A DNA stretch of 64,000 nucleotides, from NCBI GenBank assembly GCA_015179025.1, contig WHUX01000186.1, forward strand, positions 39,489 to 103,488, in the 5' to 3' direction. Shown piece after piece: positions 10,522 through 46,197 of this stretch (the first letter of the stretch is position 1; each line of letters begins with the position of its first letter). This DNA is from Terfezia claveryi. Lineage: Eukaryota > Ascomycota > Pezizomycetes > Pezizales > Pezizaceae. The translations under genes and the position numbers were made by a program. Under the pieces are notes generated by a model. That model saw only the letters and a program-made list of their open reading frames with translations, did not search any database and had not been told where the DNA came from.

Positions 10522-10642
10522 ACATCTACGACCATAGACTGAAGAAAACGAGGCATCCCGTCCGCTCTGCCATATCTAAGCTTCAGATCGCCAGGCTAGT
10601 ACTGCAGTGGGTGACCATGCGGGAATCCCTGGTGTTGTAGAT
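10522..10642 (+). rRNA. 5S ribosomal RNA gene
   Basis: The sequence follows the fungal 5S pattern: CTACGACCATAGA near the start, CATCCCGTCCGCTCT (10553-10567), an AAGCTTCAG box A region, then AGTGGGTGACCATGCGGGAATCCC in the box C region, and GTTGTAGAT at the end. The terminal helix pairs ATCTACGACC with GGTGTTGTAGAT (one G-U pair). Length is about 121 nt, as usual. In many filamentous ascomycetes 5S genes are dispersed as single copies transcribed by RNA polymerase III, and this arrangement fits. Whether it is a functional copy or a 5S pseudogene cannot be settled here, but the internal promoter region looks intact. Confidence 0.85.
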
Positions 10643-10648
10643 TTTTTT
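10642..10648 (+). terminator. RNA polymerase III terminator (T7 run)
   Basis: Seven T residues directly follow the 3' end of the 5S gene, the standard termination signal for this polymerase. Confidence 0.8.
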
Positions 10649-11561: not shown

Positions 11562-11711
11562 ACATTATCGAAATTATCAAGATACTTGTAAACATTACTT
11601 TTCTCATACTCGTGGGTGGCCTAGACATTCCGTATTCTCTCATAGGGCTTTAGGCCTTCTAGAAGGTTAATCTTTTGCCGGGAGGCCTGGAACATGTTGT
11701 CAGAAATTGTT
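11562..11711. repeat. 150-bp target duplication, left copy
   Basis: This stretch (ACATTATCGAAATTATC ... TCAGAAATTGTT) is repeated at 16366-16515 with only about two base differences, flanking the Penelope-like element exactly. On the minus strand it contains an open segment (QKINLLEGLKPYERIRNV, one stop), so the target was probably a decayed coding sequence, perhaps a gag. Confidence 0.85.
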
Positions 11712-12191
11712 GGGGGGAGGAAGAAAATTTGTTAGAATTCCTGAAGAGTATCACGAAGGACAACTTGACTTGTAGGTCACTGTTGGTTTCGTCTGGATTG
11801 ACTCTTCAGTGCTTGATACTTATACCTTTTCCTACCTCTAGTGTGACTCACGGTAATTGTGATTATTTCCATGGTGTGGGTGGGCTGACCACCCTCTTCT
11901 AAAAATCTAAATTAAAAGTGTGACTCGTTCATGCTAATAGTGTGACTCATTAAACATGATTGCGTCATGCAGTCAGCAATACTAATTTGGGGGCGGTATG
12001 CTAATCTTACCTGCATGCATGACGCATGTGCGACGGGTGTGACTCCGACATGCATGTGCATGCATGATGACTGCATTGCGCTAATGCAGGGTAAGCGCTA
12101 GTAATATACCCTTGCTAGCGGCTATGTTTCAGTGTGGCACACTAAAAACATAACCGAATTCACCCAGAGTGAGCCGCAACGAGAGCGGTTA
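11712..12191 (-). repeat. PLE terminal repeat 1
   Basis: It matches 15422-15880 in direct orientation and 15881-16365 in inverted orientation. It includes a CTGCATTGCGCTAATGCAG hairpin and a degenerate hammerhead (11747-11820). It lies downstream of the reverse transcriptase. Confidence 0.85.
11747..11820 (-). ncRNA. Hammerhead ribozyme, degenerate copy in repeat 1
   Basis: The minus strand has the CTGAAGA core, the GTC/GAC stem II and GAAAC as in the intact copy, but after the GTC cleavage triplet it reads CTTCG instead of TGCTTCG. The 2-nt deletion destroys the first pairs of stem I next to the cleavage site, so activity should be weak or absent. Confidence 0.65.
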
Positions 12192-12478: not shown

Positions 12479-14240
12479 TCAATGTTGCTTCGAGAAGTTT
12501 AGGAGGGATTTGCTTCCCTGCCAGACTTCTTGAATTCCTTGTTGTACATTTCGTACATCTATAAAATCCCATATTGGATTAAGAACGGATTTAACTACCA
12601 TGATGTTATCCACTCCCGCTGGTTTGACCATACGGTACCGGTTTTCCCATCTTGTATTGTAGTTACGGGTAATCCATTCTTTAACCAAAAAGTGGGTACT
12701 CTCGGCTGAGGTAAATAGAGGCTAGTTCCTCAACCGATTGCTTGTATATGTCTGCATTAGACGACAAGGCAGCGAGCCGACTCATCTCTCCGAGGAAAGT
12801 TCCTTTTTTCATCCACTTTGGATGCCCCGAAGAGAATGGGATTCGTTCGAAATGGTTTAGGGTTTCCTGTATGGTCTGAAGTCGAACTTCCCTGTAGACG
12901 GGAGTGCATGACTTCTAGATCCAAGAATACCATACGGTATTTATCCACTTCCCATTTGAGCTTAAGACCTGGGAATTTCAGGTGCTCTTTGGCATATTCC
13001 AGCGCTAAACTCTCGTTCGGCACAAGGATTATAGTAAATATGTCATCGATATACCTTTTGTACAGAAGTACTTGAGGATCTTTGATCATATGTTGTTCAT
13101 ATTTAGCCGCGTATAAATTAGCAATATGTGGAGAACTTGCGACTCCCATTGCTAATCCATCTGTTTGCAAGAACAGGTTACTACCATACCGGAAAACAAG
13201 GTAGTTGTTCGCAATTGAACAGAGTTCTCGGGCAAGTTTGCCTTTGATCTCTCCGTGATGTTTAGAAGCCGCAGCTTCGACCACATCGTGAATGGCATTA
13301 AGCGGGACATTCGAGTAGAATGCTTCTACATCCGCCAAAAGCATGAAAGCTTTCAAACCAAATGGAACTTTAACCTTTAATAGTTCTTGGGCTAACGTTC
13401 TACTATTAAGTAGAATCGTAGGTGATGTTTTGACTTCATCTTCCAAGAGGTTACACAACATAGACGCAGCAGTTTCACCCGTGAAACTGTGGCAAGGAAT
13501 AATTGGTCTAAACTTGGTCGGTTTTTTATGGATTTTCGGAAGTCCACTAAAGCGTGGCAGCTTCCGAATATCTTCGTTCCAAGCATTAGCCAGTAGGAAA
13601 TTTTCCTCTTGTTCAGTCAGGGAATAGGTATCTGACTGAACAATCTGGTCTAAGTGTGTTTGCAAGTTTTTCATAACTTCATGACACTTATCAACGTTGA
13701 TCTTGGTTATCGATCTATCGTTGGCTAAGTAATCGTTACATGCATAATGTACCATGTTCGGGATACTACAGCCATACCAATATTCTTGTCCGTACTTGTT
13801 ACGAATAAATCGTGTTTTTTCAAGTACTCCAGCAGTTTTACTGCATCTTTCATCCCTTGGTGATTGATGCCGGTTGTTTTAGGTGCTTCTTCGATCATTC
13901 GACATAATCGAGAACGTCCCTCGGCCAACCCTGCTTCGACAGGTACTGACGCTTTAGGAGCTGGTATGGGTGTACCGGAACCTAAAGAGTAGCGGTGGTC
14001 ATATGCTTTATTGTTTTTACCATTGAAATGACATTTCCATCTAATAGTATTGCAAAAATGCTCGTATCACGTAAGACAATAGAAGTTTTTATTTCAGTAC
14101 TAAACATAAAGCAGAAACCCTTGCTAATGGAGTTCGCCACGTCATGTGGCAACTCCACTCCTTCCAACAGATGTACTCCTCGCCGAAATCTAAGCGAGTC
14201 CAAGAATGCCAGTGGCATTCGCTGACGAATTTCCATCACT
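12479..14240 (-). pseudogene. PLE reverse transcriptase, frameshifted
   Basis: The best frame (12757-13755, 332 codons) holds the RT core: GLPKIHK (residues 71-77), RPIIPCHSFTGE (83-94), ADVEAFYSNVP with the first catalytic Asp (about 142), TDGLAMGVASSP (198-209) and RYIDDIF with the catalytic Asp pair (about 237-238). The KIHK and GLAMG motifs are typical of Penelope-like enzymes. Upstream, in other frames, are STDKNIGMAVVSRTWY (about 13750-13800) and the N-terminal part to 14240. Downstream, EMSRLAALSSNADIYKQ and KPAGVDNIMVVKSV continue the thumb and C-terminus to 12479. At least three frame changes and no intact single frame mean this copy is inactive unless corrected. No GIY-YIG domain follows. 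Confidence 0.85.
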
Positions 14241-15363
14241 GCTTGGTTGAAAGGGATGTTTAGTAAACGGTCTGGATAAGACGATGGGTTGGACCAGGTT
14301 CACATACCTTCTGAGTCTTTTTCTGACTCTTTTCTTCTTCACTTTCGTTGCGAAGTGGCGCGTTGGATTCGGCTCGCTTCCTCTTCTTCCTGTTTGAAGT
14401 TTTTGAGGAGGTGTTTTTGCCAGCTTTGCTGGCGCTTTGCCCTTTCCGTTGCCTTTTCTCTTCGAATCTATAATTGACACAATTTGAGTTAGATAATGAT
14501 CGCTTTAGCACTTTCGGAGGATCGTACCTTTCTCTTTTCGAAGAGCGTCTTGGACAGCTTTGCGAACCGTGTCAGCCAGACTATCTTGTGTGATAGCTGG
14601 ACCCTGTTGGGGGTCTTTCGCAGCGTCCTTCAACTTCATCTTATTCAGAGCTGTTTCCAGCTCTGCTATTGCCTTGCCTCCGGCAATATCTACTACTCGA
14701 GTAGCATAAGTGAAGATGTCCTGAGAAAGCAGGCCTTTTTCGTTGGCAAGAAATGACGTATTCTTGCCAGTGGCGGTAGTTGAATCCGTGACGTTATGAA
14801 GTGTTAACATTCTTCATAACGTTGATCAATAATATTGATCACTGGTTTTTGGATTGCTGGGCGACGTAGTCTAGTATGGAGGAATGTCACTTCCTGTTCC
14901 CTTGCTGTAATAGCTTGGGAGAGCATTTCCATACGGAAGGCCAACACCTTCGATTCGACTCCTGCTAGGAATACCTTCGCAGTAGAGGTTTGATCGAGTA
15001 GATCATTCCTGTCATCCAAGTCCATTCCCTCACGGAAATCCTCCAAATATTCCTTAGAAAATTGGATTTTCGACATGGATGCCCTGGATTTCGAGGCCAG
15101 GTCCCTCGTGATTTGTGCTCCTCCAACTTTCTCAAAGTAGCTCGAGACCTGTAATAGGTCTGAGCTAACTTGTAGTGTTGGACCAAAAAGGAACGGAGAC
15201 TTTTGCGATAGCTCGTCGGAATGAGGTCAATGACCTCATTCAGCGACGTCGTGAGCGCAGAGTGGTTCGCTCGTTGAACAGATTGGTTTAGCTGAACGAA
15301 GGAGGAAGAGGAGGCGGCGAAGGAGGCCGGAGATGGGGAGCGGATGGCACGAAGAGAAGACAT
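14190..15363 (-). pseudogene. PLE N-terminal region / ORF1-like protein, frameshifted
   Basis: It begins with MSSLRAIRSPSPASFAASS at 15363, just inside terminal repeat 2. It continues through a helical region (TSYRKSLRSFLVQHYKLAQ) and, after a frame change near 15080-15110, YLEDFREGMDLDDRNDLLDQ. A 7-bp overlap (ATGTTAA near 14804-14810) passes to a third frame with an Ala/Lys-rich helix and a basic stretch (SKAGKNTSSKTSNRKKRKR) near 14360-14420. PLEs often carry such an N-terminal extension before the RT. The overlap could be a decayed frameshift or a stop-start overlap; I cannot tell which. Confidence 0.6.
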
Positions 15364-15421
15364 TGTTGTTTCGTGGGTGGGTATGGATCGTTTGTACGAA
15401 AAGAATTCGTCTTTGAAAGTC

Positions 15422-15880
15422 GGGGGGGAGGAAGAAAATTTGTTAGAATTCCTGAAGAGTATCACGAAGGACAACTTGACTTGTAGGTCACTGTTGGTTT
15501 CGTCTGGATTGACTCTTCAGTGCTTGATACTTATATCTTTTCCTACCTCTAGTGTGACTCATGGTAATTGTGATTATTTCCGTGGTGTGGGTGGGCTGAC
15601 CACCCTCTTCTAAAAATCTAAATTATAAGTGTGACTCGTTCATGCATAATGGTATGACTCATTAAACATGATTGTGTCATGCAGTCAGCAATACTAATTT
15701 GGGGGCGTTGTGCTAATCTTACCTGCATGCATGACGCATGTGCGACGGGTGTGACTCTGACGTGCATGTGCATGCATGATGACTGCATTGCGCTAATGCA
15801 GGGTAAGCGCTAGTAATATACCCTTGCTAGCGGCTATGTTTCAGTGTGGTACACTAAAAACATAACCTGCTTCACCCAGA
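15422..15880 (-). repeat. PLE terminal repeat 2
   Basis: A direct copy of repeat 1, placed immediately upstream of the coding region. The hammerhead region (15458-15531) has the same 2-nt deletion as repeat 1. It joins the inverted repeat 3 tail to tail at about 15880. Confidence 0.85.
15458..15531 (-). ncRNA. Hammerhead ribozyme, degenerate copy in repeat 2
   Basis: The core bases are intact, but the same 2-nt loss at the start of stem I as in repeat 1 is present. The orientation is sense with respect to the PLE genes. Confidence 0.65.
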
Positions 15881-16365
15881 TAACCGCTCTCGTTGCGGCT
15901 CACTCTAGGTGAATTCGGTTATGTTTTTAGTGTGCCACACTGAAACATAGCCGCTAGCAAGGGTATATTACTAGCGCTTACCCTGCATTAGCGCAATGCA
16001 GTCATCATGCATGCACATGCACGTCGGAGTCACACCCGTCGCACATGCGTCATGCATGCAGGTAAGATTAGCACACCGCCCCCAAATTAGTATTGCTGAC
16101 TGCATGACGCAATCATGTTTAATAAGTCACACCATTATGCATGAACGAGTCACACTTTTAATTTAGATTTTTAGAAGAGGGTGGTCAGCCCACCCACACT
16201 ACGGAAATAATCACAATTACCGTGAGTCACACTAGAGGTAGGAAAAGGTATAAGTATCAAGCACTGAAGAGTCAATCCAGACGAAACCAACAGTGACCTA
16301 CAAGTCAAGTTGTCTGCTTCGTGATACTCTTCAGGAATTCTAACAAATTTTCTTCCTCCCCCCCG
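15881..16365 (+). repeat. PLE terminal repeat 3, inverted
   Basis: Inverted relative to repeats 1 and 2. With repeat 2 it forms a nearly perfect hairpin of over 400 bp per arm. It is complete to the same outer end as repeat 1, including the GCGGCTCACTCTAGGTGAATT segment missing from repeat 2, so it is not a simple fold-back copy of repeat 2. Confidence 0.85.
16253..16328 (+). ncRNA. Hammerhead ribozyme, complete
   Basis: All conserved parts are present in order. CTGAAGA (CUGANGA core) is at 16264-16270. Stem II is GTC (16271-16273) with GAC (16280-16282) and a 6-nt loop. GAAA is at 16283-16286. Stem III pairs A16286, C16287, A16289-C16291 with G16309-T16313 (C16288 bulged), extended by TGAC/GTCA around a 6-nt loop. 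The cleavage triplet is GTC ending at 16314. Stem I pairs AAGCA (16259-16263) with TGCTT (16315-16319), then after a 3-nt bulge AGTATC (16253-16258) with GATACT (16323-16328). The open helix is stem I, so this is type I. Self-cleavage after C16314 is predicted. Hammerheads are known in PLE terminal repeats, where they are thought to process the transcript. Confidence 0.85.
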
Positions 16366-16515
16366 ACATTATCGAAATTATCAGGATACTTGTAAACATT
16401 ACTTTTCTCATACTCGTGGGTGGCCTAGACATTCCGTATTCTCTCATAGGGCTTTAGGCCTTCTAGAAGGTTAATCCTTTGCCGGGAGGCCTGGAACATG
16501 TTGTCAGAAATTGTT
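16366..16515. repeat. 150-bp target duplication, right copy
   Basis: Nearly identical to 11562-11711 and directly abutting the element's right end. The sequence then continues into unique DNA (TGCTACCAACTATGG). Confidence 0.85.
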
Positions 16516-23877: not shown

Positions 23878-24853
23878 TTGGCAAGCATGCCATGTATGGT
23901 CAGCTCACCATATGTCGCAAGCATCTTGTGTAGTAAGCATAGGTACAGCCTAGTCTGATTGCACTTCCACTCGCAGAGGGTAAGGCCAGTGGTAAACAAG
24001 TCTGACTCGCCTGAGGCCTATTGTACACTTGCATAGTGACCCGGTGGACAGTCATGTGTTTAGTTGAGGGTAATGAGCTCACCCGATAGGCACATTATCT
24101 AAATTATCAATCTCTATGGAATTCATGTATCTGCAGCCTCTATATTCATGTATTAGCGGCTTCTACATTCATGCATTTGCGGCCATTATATTCACGCAAT
24201 TGTAGCCTCTATATATCTATGGAGTTCATGCATTTGCGGCCATTATATTCATGCAATTGCAGCCTCTATCTATGGAATTCATGCATTTGCAGCCTCTATG
24301 TATATATCTATGCTAGCGTCATTTATTATGTAACTTAACCATCACGTGCAAAGTTGGCCGCATGTGGCCCTTAATAAGACTGCGGGGACATGGCTATTCC
24401 ATTTCGCTCAGGTTTGTTTCCAGACATTTTTCAGGCGACACCAACAATCCGAAGCTTGGCGAAGGTTTCAGTTGGTGACAAAACGTCTGTAGCGAGACTG
24501 CATACTATATATATCTTAGAATAGAAACAAACTTTGTTTCACTTAAAATTGATATCTAACTTCATTGCCAACTATTTCTAGTATACATAGTATTATATAT
24601 TCCTAAGTTTAGGCTTCATACTCTATTAATACGTGCCAACCTGACTATAGGTCTTAGGAATTAGGCTAAGCTTGTCACAGAGTCAGTGGATCTTGGCATT
24701 GGACTAAGCTAAATTCAATGCTTAGTCAGCAGCTTGGATCGGTCATTTCGGGTCTTGCCAAGGCATGAGACTAATTTTCTTCTTGCCGGCACCATTATCA
24801 TATCCCAAACAAAGACAAACCTCCATTATCCTCTGCCACTACTCGTGCCTAAT
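23878..24853. repeat. Intergenic with a degenerate AT-rich tandem array (24110-24310)
   Basis: About five degenerate units contain ATTCATGCATTTGCGGCC, ATTCATGCAATTGCAGCC and TCTATATATC. No gene is supported in the rest of the interval. Near 24660-24730 there is an inverted pair of AGCTTAG-type words. Confidence 0.5.
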
Positions 24854-24854
24854 A

Positions 24855-25772
24855 GGGGTTCCCCTTGGCGCCTTCGTTCTCACTCCGCCGCCAGCACCCG
24901 CTCTTTGCCAGACAGCCAAACCACAGTTGTAGCCAAACCACAGAATTTTCAACGTTCACACCTGAGATTCACAATGTCGATAACCCCCACACCTCGCAAG
25001 GTTATACAGCCATACAAAAATGTTGAGGCTCGGATACAGGAGGCTATTGCGCCTCTCTCCACCTTAGAAAGATCAAATATTGCTGCTGTGGCGCGAGAAT
25101 TTTTTGTACCAGAGAGAAGGCTTCGTGACCGCTATAACGGAATTCCATCACTAAATGAACGACCACCACACAACAGAAAGCTTACTGAAGCAGAAGAGCT
25201 TGCAGTTTGCAAGTATATTGATCACCTTGATAATATGGGACTTTCTGCTCGCCTTCCTATAATTACTGAGTGCACAAATTCTATTTTAAGACGGAATCAC
25301 ACCAGCGACAATGATCCACCACCGGTAGTAGGAGAACATTGGGACCGGCGTTTTTTATAGCGATATCCAGAGTACTGTACTCGTAAACAAGTATCTCTTG
25401 AGGCTGCACGGAAAAATGTACAAATACCAGAGACCATTATAGAATTTCTTGAAGACTATCAAAGAATATATATGGAAAAGGGTATTGAACCATATGATCA
25501 ATATAATGTACAGTTGTATGTAGTGGTATTTATATAACAGAATGGTAGTATAAACTCGTGTGAAAGAACCGGTCGGAGAGCCTGAAGTGCCTTGAGGGAG
25601 CAGCTGGGAGTAGAGCAGGTCAGAGTGCCTAGGAGTGCGAGTTAGCAAGAGCAAATTAAAGAGAGTCTATACATCAACAACAACAACACAGAGAGTGTAA
25701 GCAGGTAGTACCATTCAATGGAGCAGAAACAGGTGGCGGCGGAGTGAGAACGAAGGCGCCAAGGGGAACCAG
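24855..25772 (+). mobile_element. pogo-like transposon (family B), 918-bp deletion derivative
   Basis: TA dinucleotides at 24853-24854 and 25773-25774 flank a 918-bp segment with about 37-bp inverted ends (GGTTCCCCTTGGCGCCTTCG ... and its complement ending at 25770). It contains the first half of a transposase and no DDE core. TA duplication and this protein type identify the pogo group of Tc1/mariner. The ends are almost identical, suggesting a fairly recent or recently active family. Confidence 0.82.
24974..25536 (+). pseudogene. pogo-like transposase, N-terminal part with nonsense codon
   Basis: It starts MSITPTPRKVIQPYKN. A psq-type helix-turn-helix follows (AAVAREFFVPERRLRDRY), then the CENP-B/Tc5 DNA-binding domain (LTEAEELAVCKYIDHLDNMG ... 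VVGEHWDRRFL). A TAG at 25358-25360 interrupts before RYPEYCTRK, and the protein continues as ETIIEFLEDYQRIYMEKG to YDQYN. There the catalytic domain should begin (usually YN-DE-G), but the sequence diverges. This would be a DNA-binding fragment without catalytic activity. Confidence 0.8.
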
Positions 25773-35292: not shown

Positions 35293-37629
35293 CTAGTCCT
35301 CCTCAATCCAAAGTATAACACTCGCAAGATCTTGCAGTTCAGATGTGGCTCCCCGCTGTGCCTTGTCCCACAAATGTCCCCACGTTGGATTCACCGCAAG
35401 ATCCTTATGCAACCTACGCAGGGCAGCAAGACAGCTACCGCCGCCGTTGGCCATTCCTCCTTTCCTCGGGAATTTACGGTATTTTTTTGGAAATACCAGC
35501 TCCAGGACGAGTAGTACTAATGCACAGTAGTCATCCTCAATTTGGGGGTTGTAGGTTACGTCAGTAACATGCAGAGATTCCTTAATGGCTTTCTTCACTA
35601 CTCGTGGAGGAACGCAAATGAGCCCCCCGCTATATGTGGTGACCAACGGTGGATCGCTGGCAGCGGGCAACTGAATAGCGCAGTCAAAGTCAATGAGCAC
35701 AGGTTTTGGCGATGATGGAACAAGTACCACATTTGCGACACGCACGTCCCGGTGGATAACGCCTGCTGTATGATGTAACCATTGGAGGGCATCCAACAAT
35801 TCTGAGATACATTCCCGAAAACTCTCCATATTTTGGAAGGCATCCAAGCTAAAGGCTGTTCCGGCGGGACTAAGACCAAATTGGATACGTGGTGTTTGGT
35901 CGATATCGTTAAACTGGTATACGTTTTTGCCGAGGTTCCGAGCAGGATCCCACTGTAGTTTACATACGCCATTAGGGATTTTGGAGCTGATATCCATGCA
36001 TCCTTTAAGGTGCCGCAGAATCTTCAGTTCTTGGGTATGACAATTTTGTACTTCCCCAAGAGAAACCTTCACAACCATCTCTGACCCAGTTCCTGGGACC
36101 GCAAACCGTCCTATACGCCATTTATGACTGCCGCCAATGAGCTCCTCTGCAACTCCCAAAGTCGGCGAAAACGGAAGTGGCTTGCAACCCATGTTGGGTG
36201 TGCTAGTAACGCCACGGATGTAGTGAATCATCTGCACCCATGAAAGTGGACCATATTTCAAAAGGTGATATGAGTTGTCCACCGCTCGGTGGCCCGGCTT
36301 GGTATCCTTCCTCTTGCATTCAACAAGAAAGATTTCGTTAACATTGATAATAAATGCCCAGAAATCGTTTCTCGTCCACTGGGCTAGGAAGAGATCGAGA
36401 AGATAGTCCTTGACCTGTCCAAGCCACTGTGCTGCATCAACATTCTGTTTTCGACTTTTTACTTCAATGATTCCGTGTGTGGCTAGCCTATGGGCCTGCC
36501 GTACCCCCTGGATACAAATCGAAATATCTAGAGATTCTCCTAATAAATAGTTCTTCTTCGAGCTGTTGATTACGGAGCACCCTGGCAAAAGGTGGCTTAA
36601 ACCCTTCTCAATAATTGTGTAGTAAGTTCCTTCCTTGCTTGCAGGTTCGCCCATTAGTTCCTCTACCAGGTTCTTAACAACCCCTTCCTCTGGCACCGTC
36701 AGCGCGTATGTGTCTACAAAATCCGGGCAAAGGAGAGACTCTACCGGCTCACTATTCCAGGCTGTGGCTCTTGTGACTGACCTGCCACGAGTGTGTTGGT
36801 AAACTGAGTGTGAGGCGAGGTACATAGACTTCCTTTGCGCAAGCAGTTCCCGAAGCTCCATATTAAGCGCCTTATATACCCGCACTGAGTCATGGTGCGA
36901 CTCGATTGTGTCTCTGAGCACTTTCTGCTCAGCCTTCAATGCATTCTCAGAAGCCTTGAATGAATTTCCAGAAGCCTTTAATGCATTTTCAGACGAGGCA
37001 AGCTTCTCTTCCCATAGCTCTTTCTCAGCACCCCTTTGCTTTTGCACGGACTCAAATTTCTCCTTCCATAGTTGTTCGTGTAGTATCTTCTCGGTATTCA
37101 AGCTGCCAAGAACTGTATTGTGCCTATCTTCCAACTTTCATATGAATTTTGGAGTTAGCTATTGCTTAGCTAGGCAATCGAGTGTTTACCAACCTTCTCA
37201 CACAATTCCTCGAACTTTCTGAACACCTTTTTTTCGCTTGTTTTCTGAGGGTGCTTCCAAACCCAGTAAACTAACATATTGCAATTTGGTAGTTAGTTAA
37301 TTGTACCAAAGTTGTAAGTGCAAGGAGAATATACCTGTACTCCATAAATCTCGTAATATGTGGCTCGTTAGAAGGCAATTTGGTGCGGCCGCGGAACTGA
37401 GAAACTTGGTGGCTACTGAAACTGGCAGCATATCGTCGTCCTCATCTGGGGCCTCGGCCACCTTTGCTACAGCTGTGTCATAGTTGCTGGGATTCGGAGT
37501 ACACAAATTTAACGCTGCCAATTTGGTTGTGATGTCGCTAGCAACCGGAGGCGTTGGAGAAGAAGGCAAGACAGAGGGGTGCGGCGATGCAGTCGAACTC
37601 ACGGGGGGGGTAGGTAGTGAGATATCCAT
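35293..37629 (-). CDS. Coiled coil / PD-(D/E)XK-like / protein kinase fusion, three exons, about 737 aa
   Basis: Exons: 37629-37335, 37270-37194 and 37134-35293. Intron 1 (37271-37334) is GTATAT...GTTAG with branch site ACTAAC. Intron 2 (37135-37193) is GTTGGT...AAAG with GCTAAC. The joins keep one frame (LWST, VYWVWKHPQK, FEELCEK, LEDRHN). Order: a disordered N-terminus; coiled coil (about 130-225, repeats ASENALKA); a PD-(D/E)XK-like domain with ESLDISI (Asp about 327), HGIIEVKS (Glu about 348, Lys about 350) and a following helix; then a kinase domain with VVKVS (Lys about 480), catalytic loop VIHRDVRVANVV (Asp about 587, Asn about 592) and DFD in place of DFG (606-608), ending at about 730. 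Nuclease-kinase fusions occur in Crinkler-type effectors and FunK1-like fungal kinases. A start 32 codons upstream (37725) is also in frame. Activity and target are unknown. Confidence 0.8.
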
Positions 37630-39698: not shown

Positions 39699-40339
39699 AT
39701 GTTCTGTCCCATAGAGCGGTGCGTCCCGCCCACGTGTGGGACGTCCCATACACCTGTGGGACGCTATAGCTGGGTGGGACGACCCACCCAGCTTTGGCAC
39801 TAGTGACCGGCCCATCCAGCAGTGGGCCCAGACTAGCCCAGCCCATTCACCTTTTCACCGTCGCATGCATCAGTCGAACGAAATGCTCTATAAACGTTGC
39901 ATACAAAATAATTATCACCATCCACATTGCATACAAAACAATGACTGCACCAACAAATAAACAACCCCAAAATATGACTTAATTATCACCACACCAGTAA
40001 ACAAACCAATCGAAATAAATTAAAAAACAGAATGCGGCAGGCAAAATATAAATAAAATAAAAAAGAATAGAAAAAACCCTGAACGCAGGCTACGTCTCAT
40101 CGGGATTCACAGTGAATATAGAATATAGGCATACGGATAAGTAGGCTCAAGATAATCTTATTATGAAGGCTTGCTTAATTAACAGAAGGTAGCTAAACTG
40201 GAGAATATATATATACACGGAAGTGCGGCTGGTTCATCCTACTCCTTCCCCTGCCCCTTCCCTCCGCCGCTAAGTTGTGCTGCCCCCTATGCCGCTAGTT
40301 CGTACCTTTCCTCCGCCGCTAGTACGTGCTGCCCCATAT

Positions 40340-40560
40340 GAGCCTGCAATTCGGGGTCTATATTAGCCTAGATATCCATGTCCACATGAGCCTGCAATTG
40401 AGGGCTCCTTAAAGCCTAGATATCTGCACCCACATGTGCCGGCAATCGGGGGGGGGTCCCTATTAGCCTGGATATCCGAGTCTACATGAGCCGGCAATCA
40501 GGGGGTCTATGTTAGCATGTGTATCCGCATCCGTATGTGCCTGCAATTCGGGGTCTATAT
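40340..40560. repeat. About 48-bp tandem repeats, left arm
   Basis: The unit contains GAGCCTGCAATTCGGGGTCT and TTAGCCTAGATATCC. Four to five units are mirrored in the right arm at about 45160-45390. The same words form the 24-bp array at 48615-48780. Confidence 0.65.
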
Positions 40561-40609
40561 TAGACTCTTCCCTCCTACATGAAGTGAGAGAAAGAAGACT
40601 TACATGTTG

Positions 40610-40868
40610 ACGAGATTGGGTATATTGCAGGCGGCACATCAAGCTGGTGAATGCGTGAATATTGGATATATCGGGGTTGGCCAGTTCAGGGTAAATGCGG
40701 TGGATACGCTGCAGGCCGAATATCCAGCTGGAGAAAGGGCAAATATTAGGTATATTGTGGTCGGTACATCAAGCTGGAGAAAGGGCGAATATAGGGTATA
40801 TTGCAGGCCGAATATACAGCTGAGGAAGGAGCGAATATTGCATATACCACAGGCTGAATATCCACCCT
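40610..40868. repeat. About 46-bp tandem repeats, left arm
   Basis: Units contain GAATATTGGGTATATTGCAGG and AATATCCAGCTGGAGAAAGG. The block recurs on the other side of the 29-bp array (42165-42600) and, inverted, at 43290-43715 and 44850-45110. Confidence 0.65.
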
Positions 40869-40869
40869 T

Positions 40870-42167
40870 TCCTCCCCCGCTGGCTAATGCTATCCATTAC
40901 CTCCGCCACTGGCTATTGCTGTCCATTACCTCCCCCGCTGGCTATTGCTATCCGTTACCTCCCCCGCTGGCTAATGCTGTCCGTTACCTCCCCCGCTGGC
41001 TAATACTGTCCATTACCTCCCCCGCTGGCTAATGCTGTCCATTACCTCCCCCGCTGGCTATTGCTATCCGTTACCTCCCCCGCTGGCTAATGCTGTCCAT
41101 TGCCTCCCCCGCTGTCCCTTACCTCCCCTGCTGGCTAATGCTGTCCATTACCTCCTCCGCTGGCTAATGGCTAATGCTGTCCATTACCTCCCCCGCTGGC
41201 TAATGCTGTCCATTGCCTCCCCCGCTGTCCCTTACCTCCCCCGCTTGCTAATGCTGTCCATTACCTCCCCCGCTGGCTAATGCTGTCCATTGCCTCCCCC
41301 GCTGTCCCTTACCTCCCCTGCTGGCTAATGCTGTCCCTTACCTCCCCCGCTGGCTAATGCTGTCCATTACCTCCGCCACTGGCTATTGCTGTCCATTACC
41401 TCCCCCGTTGGCTAATGCTGTCCGTTACCTACCCCGCTGGCTAATGCTGTCCATTGCCTCCCCCGCTAGCTAATGCTGTTCCTTACCTCCCCCGCTGGCT
41501 AATGCTGTCCCTTACCTCCCCCGCTGGCTAATGCTGTCCATTGCCTCCCCCGCTGGCTAATTCTGTCCCTTACCTCCCCCGCTGGCTAATGCTGTCCGTT
41601 ACCTCCCCCGCTGGCTAATGCTGTCCATTGCCTCCCCCGCTGGCTAATGCTGTCCCTTACCTCCCCCGCTGGCTAATGCTGTCCATTGCCTCCCCCGCTA
41701 GCTAATGCTGTCCCTTACCTCCCCCGCTGGCTAATGCTGTCCATTGCCTCCCCCACTGTCCCTTACCTCCCCCACTGGCTAATGCTGTCCATTACCTCCG
41801 CCACTGGCTATTGCTGTCCATTACCTCCCCCGCTGGCTATTGCTGTGCGTTACCTCCCCGCTGGCTAATGCTGTCCGTTACCTCCCCCGCTGGCTAATGC
41901 TGTCCATTGCCTCCCCCGCTAGCTAATGCTGTCCCTTACCTCCCCCGCTGGCTAATGCTGTCCATTGCCTCCCCCGCTGGCTAATGCTGTCCCTTACCTC
42001 CCCCGCTGGCTAATGCTGTCCGTTACCTCCCCCGCTGGCTAATGCTGTCCATTGCCTCCCCCGCTGGCTAATGCTGTCCCTTACCTCCCCCGCTGGCTAA
42101 TGCTGTCCATTGCCTCCCCCGCTAGCTAATGCTGTCCCTTACCTCCCCCGCTGGCTAATGCTGTCCT
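40870..42167 (+). repeat. 29-bp minisatellite, left arm, about 45 units
   Basis: The unit is GCTGGCTAATGCTGTCCATT followed by ACCTCCCCC, with variants CCATTG, CCCTTA and CCGTTA. Some units are shortened by 9-18 bp. Nucleotide variants alternate in runs, suggesting expansion in larger blocks. Confidence 0.85.
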
Positions 42168-42786
42168 AATACTGGATATATCGCAGGCCTGATATCCAGC
42201 TGGAGAAGGGGCGAATATGGGGTATATTGCAGGCCAAATATCTAGCTAGAGAATGGGTGAATATGGGGTATATTGCCGGCGGTACATCAAGCTATGGAAG
42301 GTGTGAATATTGGATATATCGGACGTGGCGAGTTCAGGGTAAACCCAGTGCTCATGCTGCAGGCCGAATATCCAGCTAGAGCAGGGGCGAATATGGGGTA
42401 TATTGCAGGCGGAATATCCATCTAGAGAAGGGGTGAATATTGGGTATATTGCAGGCTGAGTAGGGAAGGCATGAATATTACTGGTTGTTTATCCAGCTTG
42501 AGTCAGCACGAATATTGAGTATACTGCAGGTTGTTTATCCAGCCGGGGAAAGGTACGAATATGGAGTATATTGCAGGCTGAATAAGGAGCTCAGGCAACC
42601 CATGAGTCCGCTGCCTAGATCACACTCCTTTACTTGTCATTATCTCCTGGCATGTCGGCAGTAGCTACCCAAAACAGCTGCTAGCGTGTGCGTGATGCAG
42701 GTTGATCTTGCAGAAGGCACAACTGTTGGTCCCATTTATTCCCAATACAGTAACATGTAATACGGGACTTTCCGTTCGGTAGGGTT

Positions 42787-43106
42787 GTTATTCCAACTGG
42801 CTCTTCGTTGACTTAACTCACTGAGCAGTTACTATTATCTTTCCAAATAATAATACTTATAAGAAGAATCTCACTATACCTAGGTAACATACTCACTACC
42901 AAATATATATGAATATGTATATATTGAAGCCTGCAATATATATATATTTCCTATTATATATGATAGCTAGAAAGGGATATAGGTATATAACCATAGATAG
43001 CAATGGTATGTATTTTGATATGAGCAAGATATATATAACCGGCCGCACAAAATAGGTATGAATCTGGCAATTGCCTCTTTAAGAATTGCAGATTTTTATT
43101 TGAATA
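42787..43106. other. Unique spacer of the palindrome
   Basis: About 320 bp, AT-rich, with TATATATAT tracts and no coding sequence. It is not symmetrical, so the palindrome is not a simple mirror of one strand. Confidence 0.7.
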
Positions 43107-43716
43107 ACAACGGAAAGTCCGTATTACACGTTCCTATATTGGGAATAAATAGGACCAATAGTTGTGCCTTCTGCAAGATCAACCTGCATCACGCACACGC
43201 TAGCAGCTGTTTTGGGTAGCTACTGCCGACATGCCAGGAGATAATGACAAGTAAAGGGGTGTGATCTAGGCAGCGGACTCATGGGTTGCCTGAGCTCCTT
43301 ATTCAGCCTGCAATATACTCCATATTCATACCTTTCCCCGGTTGGATAAACAACCTGCAGTATACTCAATATTCGTGCTGACTCAAGCTGGATAAACAAC
43401 CAGTAATATTCATGCCTTCCCTACTCAGCCTGCAATATACCCAATATTCACTCCTTCTCTAGCTGGATATTCCGCCTGCAATATACCCCATATTCACCCC
43501 TGCTCTAGCTGGATATTCGGCCTGCGGCATGTGCACTGGGTTTACCCTGAACTCACCACGTCCGATATATCCAATATTCACACCTTCTACAGCTTGATGT
43601 ACCGTCGGCAATATACCCCATATTCACCCATTCTCTAGCTAGATATTCGGCCTGCAATATACCCCATATTCGCCCCTTCTCCAGCTGGATATCAGGCCTG
43701 CGATATATCCAGTATT

Positions 43717-44850
43717 AGGACAGCATTAGCTAGCGGGGGAGGTAAAGGACAGCATTAGCCAGCGGGGGAGGCAATGGACAGCATTAGCCAGCGGGGAGGT
43801 AAGGGACAGCATTAGCCAGCGGGGGAGGCAATGGACAGCATTAGCCAGCGGGGGAGGTAACGGACAGCATTAGCCAGCGGGGGAGGTAAGGGACAGCATT
43901 AGCCAGCGGGGGAGGCAATGGACAGTATTAGCCAGCGGGGGAGGTAAGGGACAGCATTAGCTAGCGGGGGAGGTAACGGACAGCATTAGCCAGCGGGGGA
44001 GGTAACGGACAGCAATAGCCAGCGGGGGAGGTAATGGACAGCAATAGCCAGCGGGGGAGGTATGGGACAGCATTAGCTAGCGGGGGAGGCAATGGACAGC
44101 ATTAGCCAGCGGGGGAGGTAAGGGACAGCATTAGCCATTAGCCAGCGGGGGAGGTAAGGGACAGCATTAGCCAGCGGGGGAGGTAATGGACAGCATTAGC
44201 CATTAGCCAGCAGGGGAGGTAATGGACAGCATTAGCCAGCGGGGGAGGTAAGGGACAGCGGGGGAGGCAATGGACAGTATTAGCCAGCGGGGAGGTAACG
44301 GACAGCATTAGCCAGCGGGGGAGGTAACGGACAGCAATAGCCAGTGGCGGAGGTAATGGACAGCATTAGCCAGCGGGGGAGGCAATGGACAGCATTAGCC
44401 AGCGAGGGAGGTAAGGGACAGCATTAGCTCGTGGGGGAGGCAATGGACAGCATTAGCCAGCGGGGAGGTAATGGACAGCATTAGCCATTAGCCAGCGGGG
44501 AGGTAAGGGACAGCATTAGCCAGCGGGGGAGGTAATGGACAGCATTAGCCATTAGCCAGCAGGGGAGGTAATGGACAGCATTAGCCAGCGGGGGAGGTAA
44601 GGGACAGCGGGGGAGGCAATGGACAGTATTAGCCAGCGGGGGAGGTAATGGACAGCATTAGCCAGCAGGGGAGGTAAGGGACAGCGGGGGAGGCAATGGA
44701 CAGCATTAGCCAGCGGGGGAGGTAAGGGACAGCATTAGCCAGCGGGGGAGGTAAGGGACAGCATTAGCTAGCAGGGGAGGCAATGGACAGCATTAGCCAG
44801 CGGGGGAGGTAATGGACAGCATTAGCCATTAGCCAGCGGGGGAGGAAAGG
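43717..44850 (-). repeat. 29-bp minisatellite, right arm, about 39 units
   Basis: Inverse of the left array (GGTAATGGACAGCATTAGCC plus AGCGGGGGA). The order of variants and the number of units differ from the left arm. Several units carry an extra ATTAGCC duplication. Confidence 0.85.
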
Positions 44851-46197
44851 GTGGATATTCAGCCTGCGGTATATGCAATATTCGCTCCTTCCTCAGCTGT
44901 ATATTCGGCCTGCAATATACCCCATATTCGCCCTTTCTCCAGCTTGATGTACCGACCACAATATACCCAATATTTGCCCTTTCTCCAGCTGGATATTCGG
45001 CCTGCAGCGTATCCACCGCATTTACCCTGAACTGGCCAACCCCGATTATATCCAATATTCATGCATTCACCAGCTTGATGTGCCGCCTGCAATATACCCA
45101 ATCTCGTCAACATGTAAGTCTTCTTTCTCTCACTCCATGTAGGAGGGAAGAGTCTAATATAGACCCCGAATTGCAGGCACATGCGGATGCGGATACATAT
45201 GCTAACATAGACCCCCTGATTGCCGGCTCATGTAGACGCGGATATCCAGGCTAATAGAGACCCCCCCCCGATTGCCGGCACATGTGGGTGCAGATATCCA
45301 GGCTTTAAGGATCCCTCAATTGCAGGCTCATGTGGACATGGATATCTAGGCTAATATAGACCCCGAATTGCAGGCTCATATGGGGCAGCACGTACTAGCG
45401 GCGGAGGAAAGGTACGAACTAGCGGCATAGGGGGCAGCACAACTTAGCGGCGGAGGGAAGGGGCAGGGGAAGGAGTAGGATGAACCAGCCGCACTTCTGT
45501 GTATATATATATCCTCTAGTTTAGCTACCTTCTGTTAATTAAGCAAGCCTTTATAATAAGGTTATCTTGAGCTTACTTATCCGTATGCCTATATTCTATA
45601 TTCACTGTGAATCCCGATGAGACGTAGCCTGCGTTCAGGGTTTTTTTTATTCTTTTTTATTTTATTTATATTTTGCCTGTCGCATTCTGTTTTTTAATTT
45701 ATTTCGATTGGTTTGTTTACTGGTGTGGTAATAATTAAGTTATATTTTGGGGTTGTTTATTTGTTGGTGCAGTCATTGTTTTGTATGCAATATGGATGGT
45801 GATAATTATTTTGTATGCAACGTTTATAGAGCATTTCGTTCGACTGATGCATGCGACAGTGAAAAGGTGAATGGGCTGGGCTAGTCTGGGCCCACTGCTG
45901 GATGGGCCGGTCACTAGTGCTAAAGCTGGATGGGTCGTCTCACCCAGCTATAGCGTCCCACAGGTGGGCGGGATGCACTGTTCTATGGGACAGAACAACA
46001 TTTGGTCAAAGAACATTGGAGATAACATAAAATGACCTATCGTAGAAAATACTCAGTAGAGGTATACCCGAAATGAAGGTTATTATGTAGAGAAATATTA
46101 GGTCTAAGAACAAGAGCATGTAGCCCTCATAATAGTAGCCTTTAAAGATCACAATGCTACAGAGTTTTAACTATTGCTTTGCTTGATCACATCTTAC

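Follow-up and report, generated by a model that had tools for sequence, protein, structure and literature searches.

The window, the whole 64,000-nt stretch of DNA analysed here, comes from the desert truffle Terfezia claveryi (Pezizales) and harbors a Penelope-like element (PLE) whose coding frames lie on the minus strand (Table 1). The body of the element contains a reverse transcriptase match (RVT_1, scoring 37 bits where 29.6 are required), and direct terminal repeats (pLTRs) flank the ORF while a further, inverted pLTR stands at the head, which is the layout of a PLE. A DNA transposon with terminal inverted repeats was ruled out by the reverse transcriptase gene together with the direct pLTRs. 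The frame that encodes the N-terminal portion of this protein gave no Pfam family above its own cut-off. GIY-YIG was found neither in this N-terminal frame nor in a 939-aa frame belonging to the C8 copy, and the two genome-wide matches (C13 and C440) lie on none of the element contigs examined; since GIY-YIG was not found in the examined frames, the element is assigned to the endonuclease-deficient (EN-deficient) subclass of PLEs. The spacer at the palindrome centre is shorter in the window element than in the 10 other elements compared, in which it spans 67-75 nt. Other features of the window include a 5S rRNA gene match (10524-10643; 85.8 bits) about 1 kb from the PLE, a frame coding for a Tc5-type transposase DNA-binding domain (24734-25357), a kinase frame (35296-37134) that matches a T. 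claveryi protein without a difference along its whole length, and a large inverted tandem-repeat structure (39700-45997) with arms of about 3 kb that are 85% identical.

Table 1. Features of the T. claveryi PLE, its hammerhead-like motifs and its flanks (window positions)
Feature	Position	Strand	Remark
150-bp flanking duplication, left copy	11562..11711	+	
3' sense pLTR	11712..12168	-	outer end in C-rich tail
Hammerhead copy in 3' sense pLTR	11747..11820	-	same UG deletion as in 5' sense pLTR
Reverse transcriptase reading frame (RVT_1)	12760..13878	-	
Frame with N-terminal part of the element's protein	14968..15516	-	
5' sense pLTR	15420..15880	-	
Hammerhead copy in 5' sense pLTR	15458..15531	-	UG absent right after GUC
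Asymmetric spacer at palindrome centre	15881..15903	.	
Head (inverted) pLTR	15904..16366	+	outer end in C-rich tail
Intact hammerhead-like motif in head (inverted) pLTR	16253..16328	+	predicted cut after 16314
C-rich tail, head end	16351..16366	+	~50 nt 3' of predicted cut
150-bp flanking duplication, right copy	16366..16515	+	98.7% identical to left copy

A sequence-only reading of this locus had described a complete type I hammerhead ribozyme in a PLE terminal repeat, and every letter that it named was found in place and in the order it gave. The core strand CTGAAGA (16264-16270) is followed by a 3-bp stem II (GTC at 16271-16273 with GAC at 16280-16282, closing the loop AATCCA), GAAA (16283-16286), stem III (16287-16312), and the cleavage triplet GTC (16312-16314). 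Stem III is interrupted: an unpaired C precedes 4 bp (CAAC/GUUG), which an internal loop (AGU/AA) separates from a further 3 bp (GAC/GUC) closed by a loop of 6 nt. Stem I, formed by 16253-16263 with 16315-16328, has the proposed 5 bp, bulge, and 6 bp, the bulge being 3 nt long (CGU). The conserved core of a type I hammerhead (CUGANGA - GAAA - UH) is present in order, and its three helices, with II and III closed and I open, are seen both in the pairing and in the best fold obtained with the core held unpaired. The proposed type I architecture is supported by the core, the stems, and the copies described below. The terminal-repeat position was likewise borne out, with one correction: because the reverse transcriptase gene lies on the minus strand, the copy at 16253-16328 belongs to the inverted head repeat and is antisense to the gene, so only an outward (antisense) transcript would carry the active strand.

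Rfam models do not recognize the motif. At gathering scores, no Rfam hammerhead was found in the window or in two regions with other copies of the element (L015 and L016); within 4.5 kb, no Rfam hammerhead family matched up to E 5; and RF00163 at E 10 gave no match in the genome among 73 of 8782 candidates scored. The RAGATH-1-hammerhead model reached 13.4 bits on 106 nt, against a cut-off of 56.3. The sequence-only reading had proposed a covariance score as its check and had named a score below threshold as evidence against the ribozyme, and on this point the outcome went against it, the Rfam score being below threshold. An atypical stem III combined with narrow Rfam models appears a likelier cause of this miss than the absence of a hammerhead. 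As Rfam models miss the truffle hammerhead here, Rfam-based surveys may undercount fungal PLE ribozymes.

The minimum-energy fold of the motif region is a different hairpin of -16.2 kcal/mol, with a z of only -1.4. Once pairing of the core is forbidden, a hammerhead comes out as the best fold (-15.3 kcal/mol), with a stem I of 4 bp, bulge, and 7 bp, and one more pair in stem III than in the structure first drawn, which reaches -12.9 kcal/mol exactly as drawn. Energy rules omit the tertiary contacts of the hammerhead core, so these energy gaps do not exclude a hammerhead. A strict descriptor (CUGANGA; stem II of at least 3 bp; GAAA; stem III of at least 4 bp, where no more than one base may bulge at the foot; stem I of at least 5 bp) matched the real window once, at 16264-16314 on the plus strand, and none of 100 dinucleotide shuffles of the window on either strand, a contrast that is flattering because the descriptor was written after the motif had been seen. 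A loose core pattern by itself arises often by chance; it occurs 18 times in the window against 4.8 expected, with 7 of the 18 matches coming from the three hammerhead copies. Genome-wide, there are 34 occurrences of the pattern CTGANGAGTCNNNNNNGACGAAAC and none of its reversed control.

Both sense pLTRs of the window element carry the motif with a 2-nt deletion (UG). Stem I thereby loses its two innermost pairs, and the score in the family model falls by 15 bits (110.4 bits for the intact form, 95.4 with the deletion), and these two copies are probably crippled by it. Eight alignment columns seemed to be common to the two sense copies as opposed to the head copy; two of these are the UG deletion itself, and the remaining six arise from gap placement in a T run where the raw letters are alike. 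Across the genome, 31 of the 45 copies examined are intact at all 12 core letters and at each of the 21 pairs, six have a core defect, and eight, including the window's two sense copies, have pair defects only. The earlier picture of an intact motif beside two mutated ones is therefore true of the window but does not reflect a family-wide pattern, and a special role of the intact head copy was rejected because most copies are intact. Only the window's two sense copies showed the 2-nt deletion; the C26 copy lacks the same two bases, but inside a 46-nt deletion. That deletion, in the 5' pLTR of C26 (L011:5103-5189), runs cleanly from loop II to stem I and leaves both flanks in place.

The 76-nt motif of the window is identical to that of one other copy (C34_3). 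Except for the old C34 and C4 copies, the pLTR copies are 94-99% identical to the head pLTR. The copy search scored 40 of 51 candidates, and one of the 41 matches listed is the flanking duplication only; the analysis took in the regions of all those listed. The 45-copy table omits C223, which carries the majority sequence by eye; the 5'-truncated copy there (C223:441200-442200) begins about 22 nt before CUGAAGA, retains an intact hammerhead and tail, and continues into the body. Counts based on 41 copies omit the old C34b copies and a truncated C549 copy (L021:6847-6922), which has one core change. An old copy at C34:128001-138000 has the same head-to-head layout with the palindrome centre placed differently. 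The old C34 copy is RIP-like, with mostly C>T and G>A changes (75 of the 93 substitutions in its 3' pLTR), and core letters are lost in all three of its hammerheads. The old C4 copy gives a match of only 21 bits, with a changed core. Most copies in this young family are intact, and the natural variants, which affect stem I, stem II, and the core, offer a ready-made test series.

Pair counts and the family model were based on an alignment (A2) of 18 of the 22 distinct rows, leaving out two 75-nt rows, the window's deletion row, and the RIP-like row. Standard pairs make up 98.9% of the counts; 13 of the 21 pairs are invariant, six vary on one side, and two depart only by unpaired cells. None of the 21 pairs is altered on both sides among these 18 distinct sequences, so the pair counts do not prove the structure. 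The old copies were tried as a source of independent covariation and rejected, as most differences of C34 are C>T or G>A changes and C4 scores only 21 bits with a changed core. Among 41 copies, the core varies at one of 12 positions, with one differing letter against 7.3 expected from composition-matched pLTR positions; neither the varying positions (P 0.12) nor the differing letters (P 0.07) depart significantly from the composition-matched sets, and with P 0.07 selection on the core was not upheld as demonstrated.

These figures bear directly on a rival reading, in which the motif is a relic, that is, a hammerhead inherited within the pLTR that no longer cuts and is kept only because the copies are young. 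The high identity of all but the oldest pLTR copies, the non-significant core constraint, the core or pair defects in 14 of the 45 copies, and the greater stability of the alternative hairpin are all consistent with such a relic. It agrees less well with the single core letter that differs in 41 copies where 7.3 were expected, although this is a trend only and the truncated 42nd copy, on C549, adds another, and with the 31 intact copies, whereas the old RIP-like copy has lost core letters in all three hammerheads. On balance, a relic seems rather unlikely, and the preferred reading is a hammerhead that would still cut.

The ends of the elements point to the tail just downstream of the motif. 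All 27 outer ends compared lie in or beside the run CCTCCCCCCC(GA), which follows the predicted cut by about 50 nt, and in the 5' pLTR the run CCTCCCCCCC(GA) reads on into the element body. The flank continues as GA or longer, like the RNA of the element itself, at 7 of 25 ends against 1.6 expected (binomial P 0.0007; the right end of C229 was dropped for its C-rich flank, and the right ends of C167 and C78 were counted once), which may reflect a variable start or a short target match. The window element sits between 150-bp direct duplications; no flanking duplication of at least 15 bp within 400 bp was found in 10 other elements (C341, C26, C173, C398, C8, C167, C78, C34b, C144b, and C229), where the longest, chance-like match was 13 bp, a search that would overlook shorter duplications. 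Apparent target losses amount to 5-8 bp at C398 (four insert-free loci), 79 bp at C229 (two insert-free loci), and 697-705 bp at C8 (two loci; 809 bp in a second alignment, with a left flank that is itself repetitive), but these empty sites are paralogous copies of target repeats rather than alleles, so that the loss may predate the insertion. For C341, none of the 40 candidates scored out of 119 had the two flanks next to each other at another site. The four resolved insertions (C97, C398, C229, and C8) are interstitial. An exact 30-base TTAGGG-type array is present on one contig only, so copies at chromosome ends could be missed. At C167 and C78, the head-side flank is shared and the head repeats are identical while the 3'-side flanks differ, a pattern that suggests recombination between elements.

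The spacer at the palindrome centre was found in both orientations, and the head-to-head centres show two junction forms, GGGTGAATTCGG and GGGTGAAGCAGG (window, L009, L011, L013-L019, and L022). Together, the tail-located ends, the target gains and losses, and the two spacer orientations are suggestive, though no proof, of reverse transcription primed at the tail by each of two DNA ends, with the resulting cDNAs meeting head to head. A tentative extension is that the endonuclease-free PLE inserts at interior DNA breaks, with both broken ends priming at the tail below the hammerhead and the cDNAs joined by a short inverted match. Target gain or loss would then be set by the overlap or gap between the ends, and the hammerhead fold would present the tail, such that ribozyme, start site, and palindrome could act as one machine.

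The inverted head repeat could instead derive from hairpin self-priming rather than from priming at two DNA ends, an origin that we consider somewhat doubtful. The start of the pLTR has GGGTGAA/TTCACCC around the spacer and could fold back, and self-priming is favoured for a rotifer Penelope element in PMC3846280. However, the head repeat has its outer end in the C-rich tail, where the 3' end falls too, and simple self-priming from a long cDNA yields continuity with the reverse transcriptase arm only, whereas the spacer is, by eye, continuous with the short head arm in five of eight short-headed elements (C97, C26, C8, C167, and C78, the last two sharing their head side and both being counted) and with the reverse transcriptase arm in the other three (C398, C173, and C724). 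A later inversion between the arms could mix the spacer orientations, so the spacer evidence is not decisive. The truffle family adds traces of PLE insertion in the form of tail-located ends and varied target-site changes, and its insertion sites bear on how PLEs lacking an endonuclease insert and why inverted head repeats are so frequent.

Collectively, the motif is likely a hammerhead ribozyme of type I that resides in the pLTRs of a T. claveryi PLE in which no endonuclease domain was found. A chance resemblance within a pLTR that folds into another hairpin is very improbable, since the differing minimum-energy fold and the lack of an Rfam call, which would fit it, are set against one strict-descriptor match versus none in 100 shuffles and against the location of the motif at the usual place of a PLE hammerhead, 5' of the reverse-transcription start or a C-rich stretch. 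A pLTR transcript would fold into this ribozyme, perhaps aided by the element's protein as in the anole element discussed below, and would be cut after GUC, with the C-rich tail about 50 nt further downstream. Cleavage could separate the units of read-through transcripts spanning several pLTRs and would create a 5' end a short way upstream of the tail and the ORF, and the hammerhead may also shape the RNA just 5' of a putative reverse-transcription start site. A need of cutting for insertion is doubtful, because it was not needed in the anole system in vitro.

Hammerhead ribozymes of PLEs, including fungal PLEs, were reportedly described by Cervera and De la Pena in 2014, and the fungal PLEs are said to carry monomer-stable forms. 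The hammerheads of that work are reportedly of type I and located in terminal repeats, like the truffle motif. No report of a Terfezia hammerhead is known to us from the open-licence literature, and a search for open-licence papers combining hammerhead ribozymes, fungal genomes, and retrotransposons returned none. In IMG/VR, the exact core pattern had no match, and none of three pattern matches obtained in looking for PLE relatives was confirmed. According to PMC7229834, PLE hammerheads are rare minimal or atypical variants; with its 26-nt stem III and two-part stem I, the truffle motif is longer.

The Poseidon element PAc of Anolis carolinensis is among the closest known systems. Its hammerhead lies, by the positions given in PMC11167929, upstream of an internal reverse-transcription start. 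The same order of hammerhead followed by reverse-transcription start is proposed here for the truffle element. In vitro, both DNA strands were cut and extended from the same start site, and the genomic ends of PAc fall on reverse-transcription start sites; its hammerhead cut only with the protein present, and mutation of the hammerhead did not stop insertion in vitro (PMC11167929). However, PAc is equipped with GIY-YIG, and its start lies in an AC-rich stem loop, whereas GIY-YIG was not found in the truffle element, whose ends lie at a C-run.

Fungal genomes hold only EN-deficient PLEs according to PMC3846280 and PMC6431247, in which the endonuclease domain is absent from Athena/Terminon and other EN-deficient PLEs; none was found in the truffle element either. 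Terminons likewise have a C-rich stretch 3' of the hammerhead (PMC6431247). For EN-deficient PLEs, PMC3846280 describes an apparent use of exposed chromosome termini as primers, whether at telomeres or at double-strand breaks, and a distribution largely limited to chromosome ends, whereas the four resolved truffle insertions are interstitial. In the same source, Pen2a_Av of Adineta vaga resembles the truffle element in having two direct pLTRs, an adjacent inverted pLTR, and a short tail, but differs in its endonuclease and 9-bp duplication, whereas the targets of the truffle elements show a duplication of 150 bp or apparent losses, and an endonuclease was not found. PLE hammerheads and inverted head repeats are already known, and the truffle motif is a new example of them, a longer hammerhead in an ascomycete PLE without a detected endonuclease.
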